A stretch of 64,000 bases of DNA. Source: Linnemannia elongata (lineage: Eukaryota > Mortierellomycota > Mortierellomycetes > Mortierellales > Mortierellaceae). The notes under the pieces were generated by a model. It ran no database searches. It saw only the letters and a program-made list of their open reading frames with translations, and was not told the origin of the DNA. Shown here one piece after another: positions 323 to 29,370 of this stretch. Location: assembly GCA_036320915.1 (NCBI GenBank), contig JAXBDG010000023.1, positions 310,001 to 374,000 of the forward strand, written 5' to 3'. The stretch's first letter is position 1; every line of letters begins with the position of its first letter. The position numbers and the translations under genes were made by a program.

Positions 323-3300
323 TTAATCCAAATGCTTTTGAAGATATTTCACACGTTCTACGGCATCCTCATGTCCCTGAGCAGAGGCCATGCTGTACCA
401 CGTAATCGCTTGGCCCTTGTCCTTGGCGACACCACGGCCTATCTCGTACATTCGTGCAAGACTATACTGTGCTGCCACATGTCCTTGTTCGGCTCCTTGG
501 TGGTACAATGAAATGGCAACTGAATCGTCTGCCAGCTCTCTTCTGTCAAGACTACTGAGCTTGGTAAGCCATTGGACGTGAAAGTGAGCGACTGAAACGC
601 CGCCATCCATTGCACGGCGATACAGGTCTAGTGCCTCCTCTTGGTCCTGAACAACCTCGAGACCGACCTCATACATCAATGCAAGGTTGAAAATAGCACA
701 CCCATTGCCTTGTTCAGCACCCTTGCTATACCATACGAATGCAAGACGGTCGCTCTGTTCGACCCCTTGGCCAAGGTCATAAGAGAAACCAAGGCAGTTT
801 TGCGCGCTTGCATGTCCTTGTTCTGCTGCCTTGGTATACCACCTGACCGCCTCGACATCACTCTGCTCGAGTTCTCGTCCTTGGTGATACATACAGGCAA
901 GCTTAAACTGTGCAACTGCTTGTCCTTGCTCGGCAGCCCTGGTGTACCACTTGACCGCCTCAACGTCACTCTGGTCGACGCCTTGTCCTTGTTCGTACAA
1001 CACCCCGACGATGGACTGTGCGGCTGCATACCCTTGCTCGGCAGCCTTGGTCAACCACTTGACCGCCTCGACGTCACTTAGCTCGATGCCTTGTCCTTGC
1101 GCGTACATGTATCCAAGGTTGTACTGTGCTTCAGCATCCCCTTGCTCGGCAGCCTTGGTGTACCACTTGACTGCCTCAACGTCGCTCTGCTCGACCCCTT
1201 GTCCTTGTTTGTACAACACCCCGAGGATGGACTGTGCGGCTGCATACCCTTGTTCGGCAGCCTTGGTCAACCACTTGACTGCATCGACGTCGCTCTGCTC
1301 CACTCCTCGTCCATACATGTACATCACTCCAAGGTTGGACTGTGCGGCTGCATATCCTTGCTCGGCAGCCTTGGTGAACCACTTGGTAGCTTCGACGTTG
1401 CTCTGCTCGACGCCATGTCCTAACTTGTACGTCAATCCAAGGTCGGCCTGTGCGGCTGCTTGTCCTTGCTCGGCAGCCTTGGTGAACCACTTGACCGCCT
1501 CGGCATAACTCTGCTCCACTCCTCGTCCTTGGTCGTACATCAATCCAAGGTTGTACTGTGCGGCTGCAACTCCTTGCTCGGCAGCCTTGGCGAACCACTT
1601 GACTGCCTCGACGTCACTCAGCCCGACGCCTTGTCCTTGCGCGTACATCAATCCAAGGTTTAACTGCGCGTCTTCATACCCTTGCTCGGCAGCCTTGGTG
1701 TACCACTTGACTGCGTCTACATCGCTCTTCTCCACTCCTCGTCCTTTGTCGTATAACATTCCAAGGATGGACTGTGCGGCCGCATGCCCTTGCTCGGCAG
1801 CATTAATTGCCAACTTGGCCGCCTCAACATCGCTCTGCTCGACTCCTCGTCCTTGGTCGTACATTGACCCAAGATTGAACTGTGCGTCAGCATGCCCTTG
1901 CTCGGCAGCCTTGGCGAACCACTTGACCGCCTCGACGTCACTCTGCTCGACTCCTTGTCCGTGTTCGTAAATCATTCCAAGCATGAACTGTGCGCCCGCA
2001 TACCCTTGATCGGCAGCCTTGGTGAACCACTTGGCCATCTCAACATCGCTCTGCTCGACGCCATGTCCTTGCACGTACATCACTCCAAGGTGGAACTGTG
2101 CCTCTGCATCCCCTTGCTCGGCAGCCTTGGTGAACCACTTGGTAGCTTCGACGTTGCTCTGCTCGACGCCAAGTCCTTGCTTGTACATCAATCCAAGGTT
2201 GGACTGTGCGGCTGCTTGTCCTTGCTCGGCAGCCTTGGTATACCACTTGACCGCCTCGATGTCGTTCTGCTCAACTCCTTTTCCTTGTTGGTAAAACAAT
2301 CCAAGGTTGAACTGCGCCTCTGCATACCCTTGCTCGGCAGACTTGGTAAACCACGTGACCTCCTCAACATCACTCTGGTCCACTCCTTGTCCTTGCTTGT
2401 ACACACATCCAAGGTTGCATTGTGCGGCTGCATCCCCTTGCTCGGCAGCCTTGGTGTACCACTTGGACGCCTCGACATAACTCTGCTCCACTCCTCGTCC
2501 TTGCCCGTACATCAGTCCAAGGTTGAACTGTGCGTCTGCATACCCTTGCTCGGCAGCCTTAGTGTACCACTTGACCGCTTCAGCATCGCTCTGTTCGATA
2601 CCATGTCCTTGCTCGTACATCCATCCAATGCTGAACTGTGCATCTGCATCCCCTTGCATGGCAGCCTTGGTGTACCACTTGACCGCCTCAACATCGCTCT
2701 GCTCCACTCCTTGTCCTTGCTTGTATACCAATCCAAGGTTGTACTGTGCGAGTGCAACTCCTTGCTCGGCTGCCTTGGTGTACCACGTCACCCCCTCGAC
2801 GTCACTCTGCTCGACAGCCTTGGTGAACCAATTGACTGCCTCGACGTCGCTCTGCTCCACTCCTCGTCCATTCATATACATCACTCCAAGGTTGGACTGT
2901 GCGTTTGCATACCCTTGCTCGGCAGCCTTGGTGAACCAATTGACTGCCTCGACGTCGTTCTGCTCCACTCCTCGTCCATGCATGTACATCACTCCAAGGT
3001 TGAACTGTGCGTTTGCACACCCTTGCTCGACAGCCTTGGTGAACCAATTGACTGCCTCGACGTCGCTCTGCTCCACTCCTCGTCCATTCATATACATCAC
3101 TCCAAGGTTGGACTGTGCGTTTGCATACCCTTGCTCGGCAGCCTTGGTGAACCAATTGACTGCCTCGACGTCGTTCTGCTCCACTCCTCGTCCATGCATG
3201 TACATGAATCCAAGGTTGGACTGTGCGTTTGCACACCCTTGCTCGGCAGCCTTGGTGTACCAATTGACTGCCTCGACGTCGCTCTGCTCCACTCCTCGTC

Positions 3301-3967
3301 CATGCATGTACATCGCTCCAAGGTTGTACTGTGCGTTTGCATACCCTTGCTCGACAGCCTTGGTGAACCAATTGACTGCCTCGACGTCGTTCTGCTCCAC
3401 TCCTCGTCCATCCATATACATCACTCCAAGGTTGGACTGTGCGTTTGCACACCCTTGCTCGACAGCCTTGGTGAACCAATTGACTGCCTCGACGTCGCTC
3501 TGCTCCACTCCTCGTCCATGCATGTACATCGCTCCAAGGTTGTACTGTGCGTCTGCATCCCCTTGCTCGGCAGACTTGGTGTACCACTTGACCGCCTCAA
3601 CATAGCTCTGCTCAACGCCTTGCCCTTTTTCGTATTTCAATCCAAGGTTGTACTGCGCGACTAAATGCCCTTGATCGGCAGCCTTGGTGTACCACTTGAC
3701 CGCCTCGACATAGCTCTGCTCCACTCCTCGTCCTTGGCTGTATATGAATCCAAGGTTGTGCTGTGCGACTGCATACCCTTGCTCGGCAGCCTTGGTGAAC
3801 CACTTGACCGCCTCAACATCACTTTGGTCCACTCCTTGTCCTTGCTTGTACATAAATCCAAGTTTGGATTGTGCGGCTGCATCCCCTTGCTCAGCATCCT
3901 TGGTGTACCGTTTGACCGCCTCGAGGTCGCTCTGCTCCTCTCCACGGTCAATTTGTTCTGCAGTCAT
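323..3967 (-). CDS. Sel1-like repeat protein, 1214 aa
   Basis: Single-exon protein built almost wholly of about 33 Sel1-type (SLR) repeats of 36 residues, each of the pattern A-V-K-W-Y-T-K-A-A-E-Q-G followed by A-Q-x-N-L-G-x-M-Y and G-x-G-V-E-Q-S-D. SLR solenoids are alpha-helical TPR relatives that scaffold protein complexes, in fungi often in ER-associated degradation, chitin synthase activation or signalling. No signal peptide, transmembrane segment, kinase or other catalytic domain is visible, so this is a pure scaffold and its partners are unknown. One repeat around position 2,810 is shortened (…KAVEQ runs directly into SDVEGVTWY), which looks like unequal recombination. The C-terminal 70 residues hold more diverged repeats and end in a basic helix. 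The ATG at 3967 precedes a short non-repeat lead. Family is certain, cellular role is not. Confidence 0.9.
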   Translation of the reverse strand: MTAEQIDRGEEQSDLEAVKRYTKDAEQGDAAAQSKLGFMYKQGQGVDQSDVEAVKWFTKAAEQGYAVAQHNLGFIYSQGRGVEQSYVEAVKWYTKAADQGHLVAQYNLGLKYEKGQGVEQSYVEAVKWYTKSAEQGDADAQYNLGAMYMHGRGVEQSDVEAVNWFTKAVEQGCANAQSNLGVMYMDGRGVEQNDVEAVNWFTKAVEQGYANAQYNLGAMYMHGRGVEQSDVEAVNWYTKAAEQGCANAQSNLGFMYMHGRGVEQNDVEAVNWFTKAAEQGYANAQSNLGVMYMNGRGVEQSDVEAVNWFTKAVEQGCANAQFNLGVMYMHGRGVEQNDVEAVNWFTKAAEQGYANAQSNLGVMYMNGRGVEQSDVEAVNWFTKAVEQSDVEGVTWYTKAAEQGVALAQYNLGLVYKQGQGVEQSDVEAVKWYTKAAMQGDADAQFSIGWMYEQGHGIEQSDAEAVKWYTKAAEQGYADAQFNLGLMYGQGRGVEQSYVEASKWYTKAAEQGDAAAQCNLGCVYKQGQGVDQSDVEEVTWFTKSAEQGYAEAQFNLGLFYQQGKGVEQNDIEAVKWYTKAAEQGQAAAQSNLGLMYKQGLGVEQSNVEATKWFTKAAEQGDAEAQFHLGVMYVQGHGVEQSDVEMAKWFTKAADQGYAGAQFMLGMIYEHGQGVEQSDVEAVKWFAKAAEQGHADAQFNLGSMYDQGRGVEQSDVEAAKLAINAAEQGHAAAQSILGMLYDKGRGVEKSDVDAVKWYTKAAEQGYEDAQLNLGLMYAQGQGVGLSDVEAVKWFAKAAEQGVAAAQYNLGLMYDQGRGVEQSYAEAVKWFTKAAEQGQAAAQADLGLTYKLGHGVEQSNVEATKWFTKAAEQGYAAAQSNLGVMYMYGRGVEQSDVDAVKWLTKAAEQGYAAAQSILGVLYKQGQGVEQSDVEAVKWYTKAAEQGDAEAQYNLGYMYAQGQGIELSDVEAVKWLTKAAEQGYAAAQSIVGVLYEQGQGVDQSDVEAVKWYTRAAEQGQAVAQFKLACMYHQGRELEQSDVEAVRWYTKAAEQGHASAQNCLGFSYDLGQGVEQSDRLAFVWYSKGAEQGNGCAIFNLALMYEVGLEVVQDQEEALDLYRRAMDGGVSVAHFHVQWLTKLSSLDRRELADDSVAISLYHQGAEQGHVAAQYSLARMYEIGRGVAKDKGQAITWYSMASAQGHEDAVERVKYLQKHLD
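2820..3560 (-). repeat. higher-order tandem repeat within the Sel1 gene
   Basis: Seven 108-bp units, nearly identical at DNA level, follow one another. Neighbouring units alternate between an S-D-V-E…G-C-A-N-A-Q type and an N-D-V-E…G-Y-A-N-A-Q type, so the true period is a 216-bp dimer. Units outside this block are much more diverged. The pattern points to recent amplification or gene conversion. Confidence 0.8.
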
Positions 3968-4508
3968 GTGATGAGAAATACTGATGGAGGAAAAAGAAAT
4001 AAGTGTTGGGTACGAAAATGGGTGGATGAGGGAGAATAATGATCGCTTCGTGATGGAGATGAAAAAAAGGGAGAGTAGAAAGTGAGATGAGATGAGCTAA
4101 GAAGAAAGATGAAGAGAAATGAGGAGAAATGAGAAAAACGGTGAGAGAGAAGACATACTTAAGTACGTAAGTGGCTGTGATTAAGGTTTTACCTGGCAAT
4201 TGTCGATTCCCGGGAGGAATGTTGACTCTTTCCCGTCCAATGACGCCCCCTTTGTTGACAAGCAGTTTGTGTCCAAGGAGAAAGAATATATTGGGGTAAT
4301 CCGATGCACGTGTACATCTCCTGCCCGCTCCTCCCCTCCAGACTCCTCCCCTACCTTCTCCGACATGCAAAGTCCATGGCTTCTTTAACAGTGTTCTTTA
4401 ATCAGTCTGCAGACTGCGGAGTAGACCCTTTAATAATGTTGATTGTGATGCATCTGAAGAATTTAGATTATTCTGAGAGTGAGTCAAGAGGAGCGAGGGA
4501 TGGATGTA
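3968..4508. other. intergenic, Sel1 upstream region
   Basis: Purine-rich (GAGA-rich) sequence directly upstream of the Sel1 start on the minus strand, consistent with a leader and promoter. I see no TATA box, coding region or clear repeat here. Confidence 0.4.
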
Positions 4509-5310: not shown

Positions 5311-6638
5311 GTCCTCGCGCTTGTGCCGTCGCTCAAAAGGGTGGGTATATCATGATATGTTTCAAGATATAGCAACTGCTTTGCGGCAGTAGACTCAGAT
5401 GAAAAAAAAAGAAAAATAAAGCCTTTGTGTGGCCAGTGCACTCTTAAGCAAGACGTAACCATTTTGCGGCAGAGCAGTTGGATACTGTGACAATCAGATG
5501 TTTAATGAACGCAGCTTATGCGACAGTGATTTATACCTCTACATAATAGAGACCCAGCGGTGCAGGACAATGGACGCCATAATTCTCTTATTGGCTGAAG
5601 CTAACCAAGAAATCTTTCCTAATATGGATTAATTTTTACTGTCAATTGGCACCATAATACGATGAAAATCGGCACAATGAGATCATTTGACACAATACAT
5701 TTATTCACTGGCATATTCGTCTAGCACCGCTCTCATTCAGGCATTTGACTTGAAGATAGGCGCTGGGTATCAAAGCTACTGTTTCTTGGAGGTACAGTAA
5801 CGAGCACTTTCTTTTCTTTTTAGCCTCAAGCACAAGGTACATCTTCTCAAGAAGAGTCATTAACTCTGTCTCGCCGTCCCCAAATGCTTAAATGCTTGGG
5901 CATTCTCGCCCTCATTGGCCAATAAATCAGCCTGTCTCTTTTCAGTCCTCTGAAAAATAGTTCTTGACAACTCATTTGATGGACTCAAGTTTTCGGTTGA
6001 TTTGACATATTTTATATCCCTCTATTCACTAACATATACGGCCGGCAGCCACTGCGTTGAGACCTTTGACTCCAAGCTGTTAAGTGGAAGTGCGGGGAGT
6101 AACGAAAAGAGTGAGTTGACTTTATTCATATCACACGAAGGATGAAAGCTATAGAAATAGCACCTGATCCATGCTCAAGTCCTGTCACCACGGTTTACAT
6201 GTATTGGAGGTACACTTCTCTTTTTTCGGGCTCTTATCTTGTGGAATACTTCGACAGTGATCAGCGCTTGTTCTCGCTAGCCTCGAACGCCAAGGTGTTT
6301 GCGACTTCCCGTTCTGACTTCTCTCATTCTCATTCTTCTGCCCGATGCTTTTGAAGGTGAAGACGGATATGCGGTGAAATACTATTCTCCACAGTCAATT
6401 AGATTGATATCACAACTGTTTAACTCTTGCACGAGAGTAAAGTCTTCATAAAGGCAAACTTCCATGCACAGTTACATAAGCTTCCGTTATCTGGCCTATA
6501 ACGCTATTCTCGCCGTCGCGGCCCCTTAAGCACATGATCCTCACTCAATCACCCTTGTCCCAACAGCTTCACCCATCGTTCCCCTCTTCTCAATTCCTCA
6601 CATCACCCCCACTCTCATCTCATCCGCCACTAGCCAAT
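5311..6638. other. intergenic with dispersed repeat D, copy 1
   Basis: No convincing gene. Positions about 5575-5664 match about 26,953-27,050: both carry 'ataat-ctctt-ttggctgaagct', 'atctttcctaata' and 'actgtcaattg' in order, so this is a second dispersed repeat family. The last 100 bases (6534-6638) are pyrimidine-rich and suit the 5' untranslated leader of the following gene. Confidence 0.5.
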
Positions 6639-9600
6639 ATGGGACTGAAGGGGTTCTATCCTTGGCTCCGCAAGAAGAAAGGCTACCATCCCACGCTTCG
6701 TCACCCCATGCACCACCACCTGCCTGACGACGCCATTATTCGCGTGGATGTTTTGTCTTTCTTTACCAAAATTCGCGGAATCTACACCAAGCATGCAGAC
6801 GACAAAACAAAGGCGCAAGCTATCCTGTTCGAGCATCTCAAGAAATACGGCGACCCCTCCCACATGGTGTTCTATGTCGACGGCGCCCCTGCTCTCGAGA
6901 AGAAGGAGACTCACCGTGAGCGAAACGAGAAGCGAGCTAAGGCCCTCAAGAATGCCAAGGTTGCCATTGAGACGCTCGGGAACCGCATCAATCAAGGCAA
7001 GCCGCCCACCAAGCAGATGTTCAAGAATGTAGAGAGGAGTCTCCGTGGAGGATTCAAGTGGTCTCTTCAAGATCGGGAAGACTTCGTCCATTTTCTGCAG
7101 GCTCAAGAGCTCGATGCGCACCTTTGCAGGACCGAGGCCGACATTGATATCGCTGCAGAGTGCCAACCCAAAGACGTTGTTCTGACTCAAGACTCGGACT
7201 TTTTCGCTTACGATTCAGTTACAACGATCTGGCGTCCTGTGGGCAAGTGGGACGACGTCAAGGTCTTAGAATATAGTAGAGAGGCGGTGCTGGCCCAGAT
7301 ACGACTGTCAACCACCAAGCTTACTGCACTGGCATGCGTCTCGAGTAACGACCAGAACAAGAACATTCCATCGATGGGGATTGCCACCAACTACAGCATT
7401 ATAAAGGATCTACCCGATACAGGTAAGAACAAATAATTTGCCAGCATGCCCATACCCCCTCTATTCTTTGTGGATATGGCCAGACTCATCATGACTCCTT
7501 TGAACCCTTTCTCTATCAGACGTGCCATCCCTGGTGAAGGAGTATCTCGAGAGCCCACGCGTGGTCTGCCGCGGTCAGGAAGGAATCGATTTCACGGCCT
7601 CTATTCTCGTGTTTACCACAATGACCCAGGAGATTGCCACTCCAGCGGGCGTATCCTCTGTTCCGTCGCCGTCGTCACAGTCAGCGACGCCTTTGACGGC
7701 CTCTGCTGCATCCATCTTATCGTACGAACTGCTCTGTCATCAGTACAAGGTGATCAAGGACCATCATGCCAGAGCCAAGGAACAGAAGCGCCAAGGGAAC
7801 TCGAGCAGCAAGAGGTAACACATTAGGTGATATGTGATTCTCTCACATGACCCTTGATATGGCTTTCCCATCACTTGCGATCAGTCTAACATGCTGTTTG
7901 CCTATTACCGCACTCTTCGACATGCTCTAGCAACTCCAAACCCAATCGGCAGGGCAAGCATAGGGAATTTAGAAGGCATCGCGTGATCGATCGGCCTGCT
8001 CACCAGCCTCGAGTCTCGCAACAGGTGCACCGGCCGCGGCATTCGTACAAGTCACGCGCAGAACCACAGCAACACGAACAGCCATCGATCTGTAAGCAAT
8101 ATGAACGAAAGCCCTACACGGCGGAGCAAGAGGCACGGTACCGGGAGTCGACAGCTGAGGCCAGGGGAAAGAAGGCGAAGAAGAAGCGACATCGTGAGAC
8201 TCAGCGACTCAAAAAGGAAAAGGAGGTAGCCAAGAAGCCGCCGCCCAAGATCGACGAGATGAACAAGGCTCAGCTGATCAACGCTATGATGTACGAGCAT
8301 CCCCTTGTTTCCCTTCAAGTCGGCACAGTCAATGCCAACAGTAAGCGGGCAGCGGCAGCAACAACCACCAACGCCAATCAACTCCCATCGTCTGAACAAC
8401 AAAAGCAACAACAGCAACAAGAGGTTTCTGCCTGCATTTTGGACATTGTTGGGCAAGTTCGCGCGACGAAGAGACATGCACAAGAGTTTTTGGGCACGTT
8501 CATCGAGACCGTCTTTGAGAGCGGTCTGACCGAGAATGACCGTATCATTCTGTACTCTTTGTGTCCCGTCGTCGAGTCCAAAATCCGTATGGTGCCTCAA
8601 CCCAAGCAGGATTCTCAGGCACGCAGCAGCAGTTCCGCTGGCACTCCCACGAAGGCTGAAGGCAACAAAGACACGGAGGATGAAGGCGACGAAGACGCGG
8701 AGGACGAATACGACGAGGATGCGGAGGATGAAGGCGACGAGGATGCGGAGAATGAAGGCGACGATGATGCCGAGCCGTCTGCAATGGACAAACCCTTCTT
8801 TGCCTTTTACCAGATCCTTCTGGCGCATATCTACTCCCGCAAGATCAAGTTCAAGACGGTTGCCGAGCGGCAAGTTGGCCAGCTGCTTACACGTGCCACC
8901 TCATTGGGCATCACTTTGCCCTCTGTTCCTCCACGCGACATCTCCTACCAAACCAACGGGTTGCTCGAGTCGACCACCAAGCAACTTTATTGTTCCATCA
9001 AGAAGATGTATCGCAACGGCTCGGTCGCTCTTGAAAAGAAGGTAATGTGAAAGTTGTCAGTCAAAGCTTGGTCACGGACGAAATACAAAGAGAATAGCAT
9101 TCATCAAAACATATTCCAAAACTAAGGCTTTTCTTTCCCTCTACATTAGATCAACCCACAAGCGGATGTCCAACCTGGCACGGTACTTCCTAAAATCGAC
9201 CCCAAGCTACCTGCCATTGAGAACTACCTACTTTTGAACAAGGCCACCGGCGGATCGAGGCGTATTGCGCCTCTCTCACCCCTGGCGCCTCGCTACGTTA
9301 GCTTCTCTGAGCGGCAGTTGCTTCCAATGTTCTGGTCTTGGCCAACCCTCAAGGACAAGATCCGGCGGATGATGAACGAGGATCGCTACTTTCAGGATCC
9401 GGCCATAGTTCCCTCGCAGGCTGACGCTTTGGACTGGCTAGCCAGGACGACGCCTGGTCGCCTTATAACCTCTTTCCTGTCGGATGTCGGTCTCCCGCCA
9501 GACAAGCACGACAAGGGCTATCGCAAAACAACAACTGTCATGGACATGGACGGCAAGGACGGCAAGGAAGGGCTTCGGGAACACCTCAAATGTCTGCGGG

Positions 9601-11116
9601 CTGAGACGTTTAACCCCAGGGATTGGCACAACAAGGGTTATGTCCTGAAGGGCTCGATCCGGACAAATGAACGTCTGCTGCAGCTGCTGGCCTACAAGCT
9701 GAAGGAACTCCAGTCTGTTCGGTACCGTCGTATTCCCGAGAACAAGGCCCCAAACCCACTCCTTACAACCATTGGTGGTACAAACCGTTATCTGACCGAA
9801 GCTCGAAATGTCTTCTTCTCAGCTGCTGATGTGGAGAATCTGTTGGCTACTGAACCCAGTCAGGTCACGGTGTTGTCACTTGATTTGGGTACCTCCTGCA
9901 TCGTTGGTGCCACCGCTTCGTTCCCACCTAGCCAAAGCCCCACCACGTTGGCGCGTCCCCTGTGTCAGGATGGCGGTCAAAAGAAGAGGAAGAAGAAGAA
10001 GGGAAGGCGTGCCAAGCTGAAGCCTGGTGATAGAAAGCGGCAGAGGAAGAGGCAGAAGGCGCGCAAGCTGGGCGGGCGGTCTCTGGCGATTCGGTGCTTT
10101 GATCTGGTGGTCAAGCGAAAGGCCGTGTCGTGGCCCACAGACAGCTTTTCCAACTGGCTTAAGGACCGGCGGGAGAACACCATTGGACCATCTACCGGCA
10201 GAACTATTCAGAAGATTGAAACCGCCCTACCGCCTCTCAAGGGAGAGGGTGCCTCGTTTTGCGAGTATGTAGCAATGCGTCGAGCGTCGGAGGAAGACCT
10301 GGACACCTTTTACAACAACACCAACTTCTGGAAGCACAAATGGGATTCCAACATTTGCCGAAAGGAAGAGTACTACAAGGTTGCTGAGGGTTTGCTAAAC
10401 ATGATTGGTGGATCTGTCGGTAGGCCGAGATTGCCACACCAAAACGTCGTGATCGCGATTGGGCTAGCCAAGTTCACTGCTGTTCATGGCCCACCAGCCC
10501 TCAATGGCACGTTCCAGGCGTTTTTCGTCGATCTTGTAGGGCATACTGTTGCAACGACTGTTCAGCAAGGTCATTTCTTTACAGGGACATGCTAATGTTG
10601 CTTTTATTTTTTTTTGTCTTGACTTAGGCTCGTTCATTGGGCTACCTTGTGGTTGGAATCAACGAATATTATTCCTCCAAACGATGCCCTCACTGCCCTG
10701 CATTTGTCTGTGCGACGTCGGACTGGCGGACCCTTTACTGCACAACTTGCAAACGGTTCCTTCAGCGAGATGTTATGGCCTCCGAAAACATGAACAATGC
10801 AATCAAGGGTCACCTGATCCACCAGCAGCGGCCGCACTACCTTCAGCCTCGGCGTCAAGACGGATCTTACCCGTGGATGGATGTTGCTGCTGGTGACGGT
10901 AGTGGGGGTGGAGGAGGAGAAGCAACTGGACCATCGGCTGTGGCCATGGACAGCAATGGAGACGAAGCAGGTGGTGGTGGTGGCGGAGGGGCAGCAACAG
11001 CCAGAAAGAGGCGCGCCGCTTCGATCGTCTCAGTCGAGGTCCCCGACACCGGCATCTATCCCACGACTGACGCCCTTAGCTCTTCGTCAAGCCACATGGG
11101 GAAAAAAGCGAAATGA
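6639..11116 (+). CDS. XPG/FEN1-like nuclease fused to Fanzor (TnpB-like) RuvC nuclease, 1354 aa
   Basis: Five exons: 6639-7422, 7520-7814, 7931-9041, 9150-10535, 10628-11116. All four junctions are GT-AG and keep frame. I start at 6639 because FEN1-family proteins need Gly2 (M-G-L-K-G-F-Y-P-W-L here); an upstream in-frame ATG at 6534 lies in leader-like sequence. Residues 1-310 form an XPG N plus I nuclease with D37, D81, E166, D168, D185, D187 and D238 at the FEN1 metal-binding positions. Residues 350-730 are linker: Lys-rich, Gln/Asn runs, then an acidic D/E block. Residues 770-1250 are Fanzor-like: an R-T-N-E-R-L-L-Q-L-L-A-Y-K-L segment, RuvC-I D975 (L-S-L-D-L-G-T-S), a basic bridge, alternative Glu E1205 (I-N-E-Y-Y-S-S), zinc ribbon C1212/C1215/C1230/C1233, and RuvC-III D1240. 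A Gly-rich tail follows. Fanzors are RNA-guided DNA endonucleases; the fusion's role and any guide RNA are unknown. I saw no terminal repeats around it. Confidence 0.85.
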
Positions 11117-11146
11117 GCATAGCAGTTTCACAATGTAGGATGCTCC

Positions 11147-11710
11147 ATAGCGTCTGTAGTTATTTTTTTGGAACGTCAAAGTTTTAATCCGAAAACGGAA
11201 GTCTAAGTGTAGCTCATGCGAGCACGGTATTCTACGTCGTTATAGCAAAGCAGAATAGATAAAGTGTACTGCGCAAAACCGAGGAAACACAATCCGTAAT
11301 CTGCGCCAGGCGCACCTGCGCATACCTCCGGATGACCCTTGCTGCCCTTCGGGGGCGGTTCAAGGGGTAAGACTAGGTGTCTTCCGTCTCGAACTCTTTA
11401 ACTGTCATCGCTCCTCTTTTTTCCATAATATCCATTCTCCTCCGACCTAGTAAGGCCTCGATCACCGCTCGGTCGGCTGCATGTGTATCATTCTGAACGC
11501 CAGGGCATCGTCCCTCCTCGTGCTCCGCCAGAGGCCGCCCGCACTCGCATTCATTCGCTCGGGGTTTCCGTCCATATATTTGTTGCCATTGGGACCTGGG
11601 CCGCTCCTCCGGGGGTTTGTGCTTCCGTCTTTCTGTGATACCCTGCTGTTTCTCCCATTCGACGGTTCTCTCGCATCGCGGTTTCCATATTTTTATAGCG
11701 TCTGTAGTTA
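11147..11710 (-). mobile_element. 5'-truncated LINE insertion with 16-bp target site duplication
   Basis: The 16-mer ATAGCGTCTGTAGTTA occurs at 11147-11162 and again at 11695-11710, flanking a 532-bp insert. Read on the minus strand, the insert opens mid-codon with K-I-W-K-P-R-C-E, continues about 107 codons to a stop at 11373, and ends in a 7-base poly-A at 11169-11163. The ORF has a C-terminal E-C-E-C-G-x(9)-C motif. This tail resembles the post-RNase-H end of fungal LINE ORF2 proteins. Between stop and poly-A lies a GC-rich 3' untranslated region with two hairpins (TGCGCC/GGCGCA, and a stem about 11336-11366 that on the plus strand has a cUUCGg loop). Truncation, poly-A and duplication together are diagnostic of target-primed reverse transcription. 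Confidence 0.85.
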
Positions 11711-13595
11711 GATATACATGCCTGTAAGCATGTTCCATAGTGTAGGGTCACGTGAGCTCGGCTACTTCATCGTGGCCGAGGCGCAGCGATTACTCACTTC
11801 GGTGACGTAATTTAAGCGCCAATTGTTCTGTGACCAGACCCAGCATCATAGGGCAAAAAAAACCCTAAAACACCATGTTCTTCTCAACTCTCCCACATCC
11901 TTCCCACACGCCCTTTCTCCATCACGACTCTCATGCTGGTTGCCAATCGCGCTCATTTGTGGGTTTAAAACACTTTTTGTGCCTTTCAACCACTACTGCA
12001 ACTGTGAGCAGGGTTTGCATGGATGTGGAACAAAAATGTTGTTCTGAATTGCTGTCTAATCGGGGTTTTGTGGCCAAAAACAAAATATTTAATGTGAAAT
12101 GCCCAATACTTTCTGATTTACTCGCAGGGGAGAGGTTCTACGATGACCAGATTCGGTGACATCCATTGTCCATAGCAACTTTCTCCGCATCACTTTTCGT
12201 TGCATTGTGTACCAGTCTCATCGCGCAAGGTAATGTTGGTATATGTCCTAGTCTCGTCTCTCCCTTTTGTCCCGTTTGTCTGCCCTCCCTTGCTGCTCTG
12301 GCCTCCATTCTTTTAGTATGAAGTGATTTCAGGTCCGCGGGACGGGTTAGTATCGTGGTCATTGTAAGAATTTTGGCACGCATCTTAGACGCCGGCCTTC
12401 TTTCCGGCAATGATCCTGTTTCCATGCGTACTTGCTCTGCAAAAGCAAGGGACTGCGACTGGCAGGACGATGTCATGAATATTATTCATTTTTTTCTTCT
12501 GACACATATTCAAAACTCTGTGCTGTGAATTGTTTCTAACGCCCTCTATGTGTGCATCTTTGGGGTTATGCCTAGGACCGCTGACAGGTGTGCTTCAGTC
12601 AACAGCAGGACTGGCGATGGAACGAAAGGGACAGGATACCTTTTACACAAATGGGTTGCATATTACGTCTGATGGAGAACCTCCCGTCAAATGACTCATC
12701 GCAATGTCGCCCATCAAGAGTCCGCACAGCTCCTCCGGGAGTGGGAGGCGTGGATGCAAGATCTCAAATGCAGCAAATACCCACTCCACAAGAGGCAGGC
12801 GGCTCATTCGCACGTGCCTTGATCATGGCCAACATTGATGAGTTCTTTCGGGACCGGGTAGCGGTTGAACGAGAATGTAAAATCTTGAAGAACTCGTCTA
12901 GGTACCTGGGTTTGGGTGTATGAAGAGTTGACATCTCGTGTGCAGGAGAGAAGACGTAAGTTTTAAGGACTGCATCAATAATAAAAAGAATGGTATATAT
13001 TTTTTGCTCTATTTTCTTTTTAATAGTTGCCAATACATTGTGTATCGTAGGATCTCATCACTTGTCCCCACTGAGGGCACAAGAAGACAACGGTACTCCC
13101 TACATATAAGCCTAGTGGTTTTAGTTTGGTTAAGACATATGTTTTGATTTCTTATTCCATATCTTAATAGTGAGCGATCGTCAAGAATAGTCACCGACAA
13201 GACCCCATTAGACCACCTGAGGGGTATTCGACAAGTAGACTTTCGCATAGGGAAGAGAGGTTGGAGGAAGAGGGGTTGATTTCAATTTGCTCGACATGGA
13301 GCTTCAGATGTGCTACCGAATGATTTTCTGGGCGAGTTAAAAGAAGATAAGGATTCAGTTTCGAGGTCTCATGCTTTTATTTGCTCTCATTTTTATTATT
13401 ATTCTTGTTTTTAGTCGGAATAAAAAGGTCACTCACAGCACCGGCCCCTGGTCGTCTCGACGGAGAATATTAAATTGCAGTGATGATGGTGTATATACTG
13501 AACACCAGGAGCATAAAGAAAATAAAATATTTACAAACGAAGTACCAAGACATTACCTCTCGAACGATCTGTTTTTTTTTCTTTCCTTCTCGCTT
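11711..13595. other. intergenic with dispersed repeat C, copy 1
   Basis: No gene recognised. Positions about 12,000-12,115 share an ordered set of phrases with about 36,510-36,616: 'ctgtgagc', 'ggtttgcat', 'gtgtggaacaaaa'-like, 'ctaatcggggttt', 'ggccaaa' and 'tgtgaaatgc'. A frame on the plus strand from 12,588 to 12,923 (111 codons) shows no family signature, so I do not call it a gene. Confidence 0.45.
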
Positions 13596-20895: not shown

Positions 20896-21342
20896 TAAAA
20901 AATTACTAGCGTTTGTGATGTCAAAGGAGGAAGGAACCAACACACGAGTTGATGCCGCCATGCATTGCGACCTTTGCTCAATCGAATTCGAAACAGAGCA
21001 ACAGCACAGGATCCATTTGGAAACCATTCATTGAAATGCGTGGTGACGCAACATGACGGCCAGAAAGTCACCCTGACACGGACCGACGGTGTATTCGGCA
21101 GTTTTTGGGGAGATGTTTTCCGTTGTGAAGTCTGAAGCGATCATTTCCATGAGGGGCTAGCAGGCTTTTGTTGATTTGGGGTCATGTGATAGAAGCCAGG
21201 ATTCCATACTTGAGCAGCATTATTGGGGGTGCGATAGTGGGATGGGCAACGAAAAAAGAAGTGTGTTTTTGATGAAAGTTGAGTAGTAAATGCTGGTGTG
21301 AAGCCCTCCAGACCAGTGTTCAGTATACAGACAAAAAGACAC
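20896..21342. other. intergenic between two mobile elements
   Basis: No gene, repeat or regulatory feature recognised. Confidence 0.4.
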
Positions 21343-21344
21343 TA

Positions 21345-23604
21345 CACTCCTTTTTGCGAAATAGTCCACTTTTCATAGTAAATGTGAGCCATTTCGACTG
21401 AATTGAAAATATTAAGGGTGTTATTCATTTCCGTAACGCCTTATTTCCCTGCAATATTGACGCTCATAACTACATCGAAAGCATGTCATCCTTACTTTTC
21501 ACTCCTCTCTCGCTTCCAATATGGTAAAAAACAGACCCCACACTCGTTTCCGAGGCCCTCCCTTCGTGGACATCACTTCTGTGGTAAACCAGCTCCAGAA
21601 CGGAGCCTCAACACAAACAGAGGAAGCGGACGCGTTGCACTACCAAGCACTGTTGTGTGCAGCGCGGGCTCGCAACAACAAGATTGTCAAAAGCCGACCT
21701 CAACAGCCTCAGCGGCCTCAACAACCCCGACAACCCCGACAACATCGACAACATCGACAACCTGCCTATCCAAAAGCCCACAGGGGGGAAGGATTTCCTC
21801 TAAGGCGTCGAATGGAATTGGTTGAGATCTTCCGTTATCTTAAGGAGAGCGCCGACACGAATGTTACGGCAAGCAATTTTCATCAGTTTGTGCGCTTCCC
21901 CGTCCCACGGCATTCAATCGTAAAATGGGACAAGGAGTTCGACAAGATCCAATTCGATGTAGCACATGGCCGAGGCGATAAATGTACACTCTCCAGCAGC
22001 CCAGTCGACCTTATACGACACATCATGGACAAGACTGTCCTTGAGTGACTACTGGAGGTTCGGAAGAGTAATGGAATTGTCAGTGGTCTTCGGCTCCAGG
22101 CCGCTGCCGAATCCGTTCTTCACATTCTAATGGACGACATTCTCGCCTTCGATGAAATCCCTTTTGGCCGTCCAATCTCTTTTACATCATCGTGGCGTTC
22201 AAGAATGACTCAGGAGTACAGTGTCGCCTACTGCGGTCTCAAAGGAGAAGCGGGATCTGTCGACAAGGACGCTATTGCAGAAAGGATGAACGAGATTCGT
22301 AACATATGCTCCGACTATGAGCTTGACGACATCTACAACTGCGATGAGACTGGCATGTACCTCAAGGAGCTCTCCACTCACTCGTACACTACGCAGGAGT
22401 TGATTAGTGGCGCCAAACCAGAGCGGGGGGAAGCTCGCGTTTCGATTCTTTTTTGTGTCAACGCCTCAGGATCTTCGCTTGCCCGAGCAAGAACGGTAGA
22501 GGCTTTGAGGCTGCAAGTCATTGGTAAGGATATAAAAACGTCTTGCTTTTGTATCAATATAAAGTAATAAGAAATGAATTTAATAATCATGTCTGCTTGC
22601 TTAACACTCTAGCCGAGCACCTTGCTCGAGGTATCCATGTGTTACCTGAGGTTCCTATTACCTCCATGAGACACGGAAATGGATACATGACCCTGGGTCT
22701 TTTCAAGCAATGGCTTCATTTGCTCGACGACAGCCTCATTAACAGAAGCCTTCTGCTCATTGACTCGTGTGGAGCACACGGAAAGCCTAAAGCTAACATC
22801 CAGGACCCGCTTGCAGAAGAGACATGGAAACATCTTCGGATTGAGCGCCTGCCACCCCATTCAACAGCCGTTACCCAACCTTTGGACGCAGGAATAATCA
22901 GCTCATTCAAACGACACTATCTCGAGATGCTCAGCAACAAATCAATTGCAAAGGAGTATGCCACTGGCGAGAAAATCACCAATGGTGAGGCATGGTCACT
23001 TATTCCGTACGCGTGGTCGCATGTCACGGCCTTGACTGTGAGGCATTGTTTCTGCAAAGCGGGCGTTCTTTCACAGGCGCAAGTTGACAAGCTGGAGCAG
23101 GAATCAATATATCTGGAAGAGCAACCACCACTGTATCCTCCCGTGACGGACGCGGATGCAAGTCAAGCCAGGCGACGTTATGTACGATTGATTGCTTCGG
23201 TCATGGACGGAGACAAGATTCAGTTTTCCCTCGACAAGAACCAAAAGGACGCACAGGATATGGCAGAGGAGATCAGACAGAAGGTGCGCAACAAGATCGC
23301 CAAGAGGTACGGCTCGCGAGACAGAAGTTCTTCCGTTGAGGCTGAGGTTGTTAAATTGTTCCAGTCTACGTATGAAGGAGACAACTGGGCGACTAGGACG
23401 GTCCAAATGCTTAGGGACAAGAGTGCGGACCGCCGAAAAGCAGCACGCCTCTTGATACGAACGTTTGAGGAATAGAAGTAATACCGAGAACGCGATCCTT
23501 TAAATCCTTGCAGAAATAAAATGAATAACACCCTTAATATTTTCAATTCAGTCGAAATGGCTCACATTTACTATGAAAAGTGGACTATTTCGCAAAAAGG
23601 AGTG
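21345..23604 (+). mobile_element. pogo/Tigger-type DNA transposon with 86-bp identical TIRs
   Basis: The terminal inverted repeats begin CACTCCTTTTTGCG and match perfectly over 86 bp (21,345-21,430 against 23,604-23,519). They are flanked by TA duplications at 21,343-21,344 and 23,605-23,606. The 2260-bp element holds one transposase gene. Identical TIRs indicate a recent insertion. Removing the element restores CTAGTGCCAA-G-TTGGCACTAG, so it landed within a short perfect palindrome. Confidence 0.9.
21521..23475 (+). pseudogene. DDE transposase of the pogo/Tigger type, one in-frame stop
   Basis: Exons 21,521-22,523 and 22,613-23,475 join in phase 1 across a GT-AG intron. The frame runs 621 codons with a single interruption, TGA at 22,046-22,048 (codon 176); no frameshift is seen. 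The N-terminal part has a Gln/Pro/Arg-rich tract and a helix-turn-helix-like region. The DDE_1 domain shows N-C-D-E-T-G (Asp near codon 275), L-L-I-D-S-C-G-A-H (near 385) and P-L-D-A-G-I-I preceded by L-P-P-H-S-T (near 426), the DDxD pattern of pogo-like enzymes that cut and paste at TA. The C-terminus is a charged coiled coil. The stop could be a CGA-to-TGA transition. As it stands the protein should be truncated before the catalytic core, unless the stop is read through or bypassed. Confidence 0.9.
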
Positions 23605-23655
23605 TAGTGCCAAGTTGGCACTAGACCAAACATTATTTCAGAACTGGTACGGAAC

Positions 23656-26952: not shown

Positions 26953-27050
26953 TACACCATAATACTCTTCTTGGCTGAAGCTATGCATGGAACATGAGAT
27001 CTTTCCTAATACGGGTCGACAGTTACTGTCAATTGACGCTATAATACAAT
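26953..27050 (+). repeat. dispersed repeat family D, copy 2
   Basis: Matches about 5575-5664: 'ataata-ctctt-ttggctgaagct', 'gatctttcctaata' and 'actgtcaattga' in the same order. It begins about 110 bases after the hydrolase stop and abuts repeat B. Confidence 0.65.
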
Positions 27051-27276: not shown

Positions 27277-27836
27277 CCTATCCCCCTAGATGTAACTTGA
27301 CTAGAAACTTTAGCAGCCGCTTGCATGAATAGCCATAATATAGTAACATGAACTTTGTCCATTGCTCCACGTCCAAGGCTCCCCTACTCGCTCCTCGTTT
27401 CTTGTCTCTTTTCCTTTTCACCTACACTATCGATTTGTTGTGGACACCATCAAGAGGCAACAATGGGGAATTATTCCGAGGGATGCAGAAAATAACCAGA
27501 TAGTTCTGGAAAAATATTCAGGGGATAATGTGAAAGATCTAGGAATGTTAAAATAACTGAGGGAGTGCCGGGAAAAGAACAAGTGATGCTGAAAATGATC
27601 AAGCTATGCTGGAAGTGGTGAACTTTACCATGTGTTCCGTAGAAACGTGATAGGAATTGTCGAGTACGGGACTCTTACCAACCACCTTTCCTTTGTCTCT
27701 AAAGCACACTCATGGTAAGAGTGACAACTGGCTTGTGGCAGCCAGGCATTCATAGTGCCTTTTGATCCTTCGATGTCGGCTCTTTCTATCATACTGAAGC
27801 GGAGTTCAGTAAGCGTTGGATTGTTCACCCACTAAT

Positions 27837-27878
<42 letters not shown>

Positions 27879-29370
27879 CATTACCCTACTGATGAAATGC
27901 TGTTGCAATAATATTTGAAACTTAGTACGAGGGAAATTCATTCGGATAATTAGTATTTGGGCCTGCCTGAGCAGGCAATGGCCCGAAGTTCTCATCCATT
28001 TGGGTTATTTCTGGATACCTCCAAGTCGAAACCCATGCTAGAACGCGACAATTACCGCCTTTTCCGATTTTTAATTGGTTACGAATAGATCTTCGGATCC
28101 TGAGTCATGCTACAACGGGTTGATCTTGCAGAGCGGAAAGGCTTTGTGAGGTTTCTGCTAGTGTTAATTCCAAACAGGGTTGCAGCTCAGAGAGAAAATC
28201 GGGACTGAGTTGAGGTCGTTGATACCGACCCAGTTGTGGAGACGATATTGTCGTACTATGCGGACTGTAAGAGCAAAACGATCACGTCGATTTATTTCAT
28301 TACTTGATGACAGTTGTTGGACCGATCTTGAACGAGATTGTGGCTCTCCTGCAGAAAATCAATTTATTACTCTTCTACTTCTCCTATTTCACCTGTCTAA
28401 CTGAGCTTTTGTGATTGTAATAATTAGTGCAAATACCTGCACATCTGTTAGAAAAAGTAGAAAGGTCCAACTCCAGCAGGATGGTCAGTCGTGGCAACTC
28501 GACGTTATAGGACAGGCAATGAGCAAGAAAGAAATGTTTTATGGCAAACTCAAAGGACTTCACCCCAAAACAAAGACTGTCAACACGGATATCCTCCGCA
28601 TTCCCTTGATCAACTACACAGCACGCAGGTACTTGGACCACCACTTTTAGCCTTTCAAACTGTCGGACGGGAAGTCGCCTTTTTCTTGACCATCCAAGAC
28701 TGACAACACTACTGTTCATGGTCTATTTATCGACTGTTACTCTACCATCGTGTTTGACTAAGGTTGATCTGGACTACGATTTTCTTTTCACCTTTTTCCA
28801 AGTCCAGACCTTGATCAAAATCGCCAGTGAGCGCCTTGAGAGTAAGAGAAAACCATCAGAACGAAACGCAACTCTAAAGAGTCCTGTTGCGTCGAAAAGA
28901 TCGTCAGCGTAAAATGGTTGGAAAGCCGTATTAAAGTTCTAGTACTATTTCCTCAACTCAAGACTCAAGTGCGTTACAAATCGTAGATGCCACAAATGGA
29001 CTCCCGGCATTGGAGGAAAGCATATCAAATACAAGCCCCTTAACCAAACAAGCATCGGAGGCGCGGCCTCAATGTAGGAGCAATTTAATGTCGGTATGTA
29101 CGCCACAAGCCAGTTGTTCAAGTGGAGGTGGAGGTATTTACTGAGTTCGAATTTACAAGCAAACTTTGACACAAGGTTTGACATTTGATCACAGATACAA
29201 GGAACGATAGCGATACTCCATTGGTCAAGCGAATCTGCTCTCATACTGGGACAGTAAGTGCTTGCCTTGAGAGGTACCGAGGAACCCGACAGCCCAATTG
29301 GATGCTCAATGGTTATGAGCCTTTTTCACAAGAGGTCTGCTGGGGGAAAGTTTTTTTTTTTTGACGGGAG
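27277..29370. other. intergenic, possible degraded coding region
   Basis: No firm gene. Plus-strand frames at 28,180-28,404, 28,411-28,650 and 28,718-28,912 have coding-like composition (for example R-T-V-R-A-K-R-S-R-R-F-I-S-L-L-D-D) and could be exons or relics of one decayed gene, but I could not join them and recognise no family. 'tgatccttcgatgtcggct' near 27,760 recurs near 18,840. Confidence 0.3.

Follow-up and report, generated by a model that had tools for sequence, protein, structure and literature searches.

A transposon family in Linnemannia elongata carries a gene that joins an XPG-family nuclease to a Fanzor-like RuvC nuclease

The closest described relatives of the gene reported here are the Fanzor1 proteins, such as the Spizellomyces Fanzor, which are cargo of eukaryotic transposons with terminal inverted repeats (TIRs), target-site duplications (TSDs) and a structured right end (PMC3627910, PMC10432273). 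Fanzors were given the motif D-X(125,275)-[TS][TS]-xx-C4-X(5,50)-RD in 2013 (PMC3627910), and the combination of DPG at RuvC-I, which is near-exclusive to Fanzors, with a relocated glutamate (E_alt) constitutes their fingerprint, a separate TnpB clade having E_alt together with D-hydrophobic-G (PMC10711439). A Fanzor lies beside a second nuclease in the Mariner Fanzor elements PGv-1 and Mariner-1_OLpv, where the latter is a separate GIY-YIG or EcoRII-like protein (PMC3627910). Here we describe, in a stretch of 64,000 nucleotides from Linnemannia elongata (contig JAXBDG010000023.1, positions 310,001 to 374,000; hereafter the window), a single gene in which an XPG/Rad2-family nuclease is joined to a TnpB/Fanzor-family RuvC nuclease, and which is the cargo of a transposon spanning window positions 5558-11835. 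The element shares with Fanzor1 its nature as eukaryotic transposon cargo, the 2013 motif, the relocated glutamate, the TIRs and TSDs and the structured right end, and differs from it by the N-terminal XPG nuclease and by having DLG, DGG or DAG rather than DPG. With the TnpB clade it shares E_alt and D-hydrophobic-G (DLG in the window copy), but that clade was defined on TnpBs, and the accessible text about it speaks of no XPG fusion; unlike the Mariner elements, it has a second nuclease that is of XPG type and fused. No Fanzor or TnpB fused to an XPG or flap endonuclease was found described among the papers listed in the literature searched (outside subscription papers and supplements), nor in the accessible parts of PMC3627910, PMC10711439 and PMC10432273.

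Five exons, in frame at every junction, encode a protein of 1354 residues followed by a stop codon (Table 1). A sequence-only reading of the window had proposed this model, which is confirmed by splicing and by full-length frames in further copies, and all ten catalytic residues that it named are where it placed them. A basic linker (approximately residues 346-470) precedes the TnpB/Fanzor-type nuclease. The splice choice is not unique, since 60 sets of donors and acceptors within the allowed ranges keep the frame and give proteins of 1328-1362 residues, and the donor at exon 4 is weak (CTT/GTAGGG). This weak donor would favor two adjacent genes that were mis-joined, or an assembly artefact, an explanation to which we give almost no credence on three grounds. 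First, five full-length frames run through all five exons. Second, the order and spacing of the two halves are repeated at 34 of 38 places in the genome. Third, the introns measure only 92-116 bp. The two-gene model was accordingly rejected on the basis of the paired places and the full-length frames.

The genome searched (51 Mb in 32 contigs; copies are named by contig, C16 being the window copy) is eukaryotic, as judged by the introns and by a eukaryotic large-subunit (LSU) rRNA fragment in the window. The full-length query gave at least 83 matches, the XPG exon at least 39 and exon 4 at least 51, and PF07282 (OrfB_Zn_ribbon) marks at least 54 places, one of them under the cut-off. At the 34 paired places, out of 38 XPG places after two matches in one copy had been merged, a same-strand zinc-ribbon match lies 3.3-4.9 kb downstream, with 0.0018 expected per place; four of these (C9, C11 and two on C12), in which the XPG exon is only 24-31% identical, were not read. 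The unpaired XPG places are C4:913788, C8:308720, C7:810195 and C17:359608, the last three being short partial matches. Full-length frames are present in five of the eleven close copies (C16, 1354 residues; C1, 1354; C31, 1345; C3, 1361; C5, 1348) and the six others (C28, C32, C23, C27, C4 and C12) are broken by stops or frameshifts; for this count, the exon borders of the window gene were projected onto each copy by alignment. Because four further close copies have conserved full-length frames, chance is excluded as the source of the open frame.

XPG is kin to EXO1 and FEN1. To the XPG half we applied a profile (A1) of 16 exon-1 sequences from the same genome, nine of which are only 38-42% identical to the window exon. 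Among solved structures, A1 matched yeast Rad2 (E 1.5e-6, profile positions 77-256) and also XPG, whereas plain FEN1 structures were matched only at E 0.027 or worse; the XPG family therefore holds from the earlier label "XPG/FEN1", the FEN1-like part being loose. With E values up to 1 allowed, every one of the 16 sequences has a listed XPG_I match (best 7.3e-6), and the Pfam cut-off of XPG_I is exceeded at two family loci (C1:1163887 and C8:285901). Matches of A1 to ADAM17 chains (best E 2.8e-5, residues 95-228) were taken as spurious. The seven acidic residues D37, D81, E166, D168, D185, D187 and D238 are invariant in 16/16 aligned exons, and G2 is nearly so; we take them to be the seven metal-binding acids of FEN1, in agreement with the Rad2 alignment where that reaches. 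Common to the window protein and the XPG/Rad2 and FEN1/EXO1 nucleases are the N-terminal MG, the seven acids and the I-region profile; the window XPG half stands apart by its strong divergence, by its place in a mobile element and by its fusion to a RuvC nuclease.

For the RuvC half, seven members of the family were combined in a second profile (A3). All seven match PF07282 (best E 3.6e-12; window protein 1.6e-8) and six match the NCBIfam model guided_TnpB (best E 1.3e-8; window copy 3.1e-4). The best solved structure for A3 is the TnpB-like protein L79 (E 7.1e-5), the Spizellomyces Fanzor structure being matched only at E 0.6; a phmmer search of solved structures with a single Fanzor-like half gave nothing meaningful, and the profile was needed. 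The 2013 motif is found in 12 of 14 copies including that of the window, with the last spacer allowed 4-50 residues, and the two exceptions are L088, which is cut off by the locus end, and L092, which has a C-to-Y change. The E_alt glutamate lies six residues before the zinc ribbon in all 14 copies (in L092 the first ribbon cysteine is Y), but none of the 14 has DPG, and on the PMC10711439 fingerprint the half is, by its sequence, Fanzor-like rather than a textbook Fanzor. Hence the nuclease fusion claimed by the sequence-only reading stands as one gene with an XPG-family N-terminal part, a TnpB/Fanzor-family C-terminal part and catalytic residues in both, the name Fanzor being not fully supported, and its expectation that the C-terminal half would match TnpB/Fanzor profiles is borne out by PF07282 at the zinc-ribbon/RuvC-III end only. 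Relatives were found neither in viral scans with A1 and A3 nor in a prokaryotic contig scan with A3.

Across a large family, the two active sites are conserved and evolve under purifying selection, catalysis itself being predicted. Compared with the C27/C4/C12 subfamily (82-83% DNA identity along the gene; all three copies broken today), the ratio of nonsynonymous to synonymous substitution rates (dN/dS) is 0.13 (XPG part), 0.27-0.29 (middle section) and 0.17-0.18 (RuvC half). That the XPG half only binds branched DNA or tethers the protein and no longer cuts would have a precedent in XPG relatives of the Mkt1 type, some of which are thought to be non-catalytic, but the dN/dS of 0.13 and the invariance of the seven acids down to 38-42% identity make this improbable.

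The sequence-only reading overlooked that the gene belongs to a transposon family present in many copies, whose ends are defined and whose insertions show target duplications and a target motif. Matching between copies ends at window positions 5558/5559 and 11835, and the family ends read GGNTGCAGGACAATKG. The inverted repeats are imperfect, with 18/21 positions matching in the C28 family and 10/16 in the window copy. Scored in the better of two registers per pair, the 8-bp duplications are exact in 10 of 13 pairs (A_C27 one base out of register) and 7/8 in one, and two pairs, A_C28 and A_C32, fail at 5/8 and 4/8. No other gene was detected in the elements read. The flanks of an extra stretch in the window copy (Table 1) meet directly in seven other copies, and in C27, C4 and C12 only ~90 bp lie between the equivalents of 11027 and 11694; a minus-strand open reading frame (ORF) within the stretch matched no Pfam family at E up to 0.1.

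Table 1. Coordinates in the window of the fusion gene and of the transposon that carries it
Feature	Position	Strand	Description	Support
Left 8-bp target duplication	5550..5557	.	AGACCCAG; same 8 bp at 11836-11843
Left terminal inverted repeat	5558..5578	+	starts with C here and with G in the 21 other left ends read	copies cease to match at this boundary
Exon 1	6639..7422	+	residues 1-261, XPG N+I nuclease core; D37, D81, E166, D168, D185, D187, D238	splicing, profile A1
Exon 2	7520..7814	+	residues 262-359, end of XPG region into linker
Exon 3	7931..9041	+	residues 360-730, basic linker and N-terminal part of Fanzor-like half; acidic repeat near residues 605-640
Exon 4	9150..10535	+	residues 731-1192, Fanzor-like core; putative RuvC-I aspartate D975 (LDLG)
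Exon 5	10628..11116	+	relocated glutamate E1205, CxxC...CxxC ribbon, RD aspartate D1240, basic/Gly-rich tail, stop codon	PF07282 E 1.6e-8, residues 1184-1246
Extra stretch	11163..11694	.	~532 bp, window copy; flanked by ~16-bp duplication 11147-11162 / 11695-11710
Structured right end, candidate guide-RNA scaffold	11698..11835	+	RNA fold -53.8 kcal/mol	z -3.96, 1/200 shuffles as good
Hairpin ATTACTCAC-TTCG-GTGACGTAAT	11789..11811	+	insertion-target-like motif; GTGACGT at each located right end
Right terminal inverted repeat	11815..11835	-	diverged in window subfamily
Right 8-bp target duplication	11836..11843	.	AGACCCAG; same 8 bp as left

Insertions favor a target motif, TGACGTCAC: 12 of 22 left flanks match at least 7 of its 9 positions exactly 11 to 3 bases before the duplication, and where flanks are aligned by their left ends, the motif is on that side. 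With a window background of 0.0015 per position, the binomial probability is 6e-29, a value that allows neither for 32 offsets nor for the fact that the 22 flanks counted also supplied the motif. Ten flanks fall under 7 of 9. Four of these score 0-2, and in two of the four, A_C27 and C9_207, all or part of the motif is shifted by one base. Outside the count are the close copies C1, C23 and C12 (with a left end that is truncated or was not found), C9:206863 (which repeats a match within one remnant), partial matches without the terminus (C23:420476, C8:282361, C27:1223263, C16:336954 and C32:2401125), three places that were fetched but doubtful (C16:509584, C28:359030 and C5:1163322) and the 3-mismatch places left over, which either are right ends or were not fetched; C27:513323 was retained with its score of 3. 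The right ends carry GTGACGT followed by AA, AG, AC or CA inside a hairpin, a statement that applies to located right ends and leaves aside those of L088, L090, L091 and L092. The C31 copy (L089, C31:21.7-23.9 kb) is inserted in the right end of an older, diverged element of the same kind, exactly at the internal GTGACGTAA motif.

The right end of the window copy is also a candidate guide-RNA scaffold (Table 1). When its last 138 bases are folded, the terminal stem uses the inverted repeat, and the scaffold of Fanzor1 right-end RNAs likewise includes the TIR, together with the TSD (PMC10711439).

A separate, unlinked transposase likely carries out excision and insertion. Families whose RuvC exons are only 31-35% identical to that of the window share both ends, and therefore one mobilising system probably serves them all. 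A search with the 20-21-bp ends (up to 3 mismatches; several TIR matches not fetched) found no transposase gene with the family ends; it would overlook a transposase whose ends have diverged further. Several candidates were rejected as transposase elements: L057 (left end at C1:4505697) contains a pogo-type (DDE_1) insertion besides other ORFs; L072 is a remnant reduced to its ends, in which the hAT and Tc5-type insertions have repeats of their own; and L079-L082 look like short remnants or chance TIR matches. A search for the KDZ family was negative but uninformative, since no positive control gave a match. That the fusion protein itself mobilises the elements through its two nuclease activities, in place of a DDE-type transposase, would agree with its being the sole gene detected in the elements read and with end searches that led to no transposase-bearing element. 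We nevertheless judge this very improbable, as TIRs and a fixed 8-bp duplication are marks of DDE transposases, the L072 remnant of little more than two ends suggests that ends suffice in cis, and the end search itself had the limits given above. Moreover, the transposases reported to accompany Fanzor1s are of DDE, tyrosine-recombinase or Helitron type (PMC10711439). In the window, a pogo-type (DDE_1) transposon at 21341-23607 is 99.9% identical to one nested in the remnant at C1:4.50 Mb, an identity that suggests recent pogo-type activity.

How might the two nucleases serve a transposon that is moved in trans? The structured right end would give rise to a guide RNA with a guide segment extending into the right flank, and the RuvC half would cut the matching empty site, either after excision or on the homologue. 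The XPG half might then trim or resect the 5' ends as EXO1 and FEN1 do, a role suggested by its kinship to these enzymes, and this trimming would steer repair towards copying from the element-bearing DNA, so that the element is preserved or spread. The explanation as a whole, namely a transposon-borne fusion with an RNA-guided RuvC half and an XPG half that trims ends and biases repair towards copying the element, strikes us as plausible, if a little less probable than its opposite, and the scheme of a guide-RNA right end, RuvC cutting and XPG end-trimming as slightly more tentative still. Alternatively, the XPG half could act on the R-loop bubble, nicking the displaced strand or junction to provide the second-strand cut, or trimming the 5' end of the guide RNA. 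XPG cuts bubbles and R-loop junctions, and the conservation of the seven acids in all 16 exons is in keeping with such a role, but RuvC nucleases of the TnpB/Cas12 family cut both strands alone and a second nuclease is thus not required, making this alternative unlikely. If end-trimming by the XPG half is correct, this natural union of an RNA-guided with a repair-type nuclease would illustrate how an element governs repair at its own break, a question that also limits genome editing. The family also bears on why eukaryotic transposons keep TnpB-like nucleases. On a broader and rather doubtful reading, the family could represent a eukaryotic RNA-guided nuclease lineage apart from the DPG Fanzors, in which an XPG/EXO1-like fusion both cuts and processes ends, the element is copied in and TGACGTCAC is the target-adjacent motif; the DLG, DGG or DAG found here bears on the question of a common DPG-clade origin for all TnpB relatives in eukaryotes.

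Several observations count against the explanation we prefer, a transposon-borne fusion with an RNA-guided RuvC half and an end-trimming XPG half. For the RuvC half, DPG is absent, trustworthy database matches are confined to the zinc-ribbon/RuvC-III end, the window copy reaches 20.1 bits with guided_TnpB, far from the model cut-off of 100, and the putative RuvC-I aspartate D975 is assigned from motif and conservation. For the XPG half, the window exon alone is below the XPG_I cut-off (E 0.0057, 17.5 versus 24.9 bits), and AlphaFold2 models made without an alignment have low predicted local distance difference test (pLDDT) values of 44 (XPG half, as a fold test for the helical arch and H2TH) and 35. 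Near-identical copies are less telling with regard to selection, with dN/dS of 0.34-0.54 for RuvC and 0-0.42 for XPG from few changes. Lastly, the flank of the window copy fits just 4 of the 9 positions of TGACGTCAC, the C28 family has a right end that folds barely better than shuffles (z -1.12, 27/200 as good), and the window copy may be impaired because its extra stretch parts the gene from the right end.

Among the 54 zinc-ribbon places, 20 have no XPG partner found. Seven of these 20 lie within ~16 kb of contig ends (C2:8289, C3:12111, C6:6338, C32:6152, C9:1447301, C27:2931583 and C31:2724596), hinting at a subtelomeric TnpB-like family; L093 (331 bp), chosen for the RuvC-I of an unfused TnpB-like gene, held no usable frame. 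Elsewhere in the window, a degenerate left end of the element family (26954-27050) lies ~640 bp upstream of the eukaryotic LSU rRNA fragment (27689-28237), no other Rfam match being listed in the window at gathering scores, and the minus strand at 323-4096 carries a 1257-codon frame made up largely of Sel1 repeats (30 stretches).

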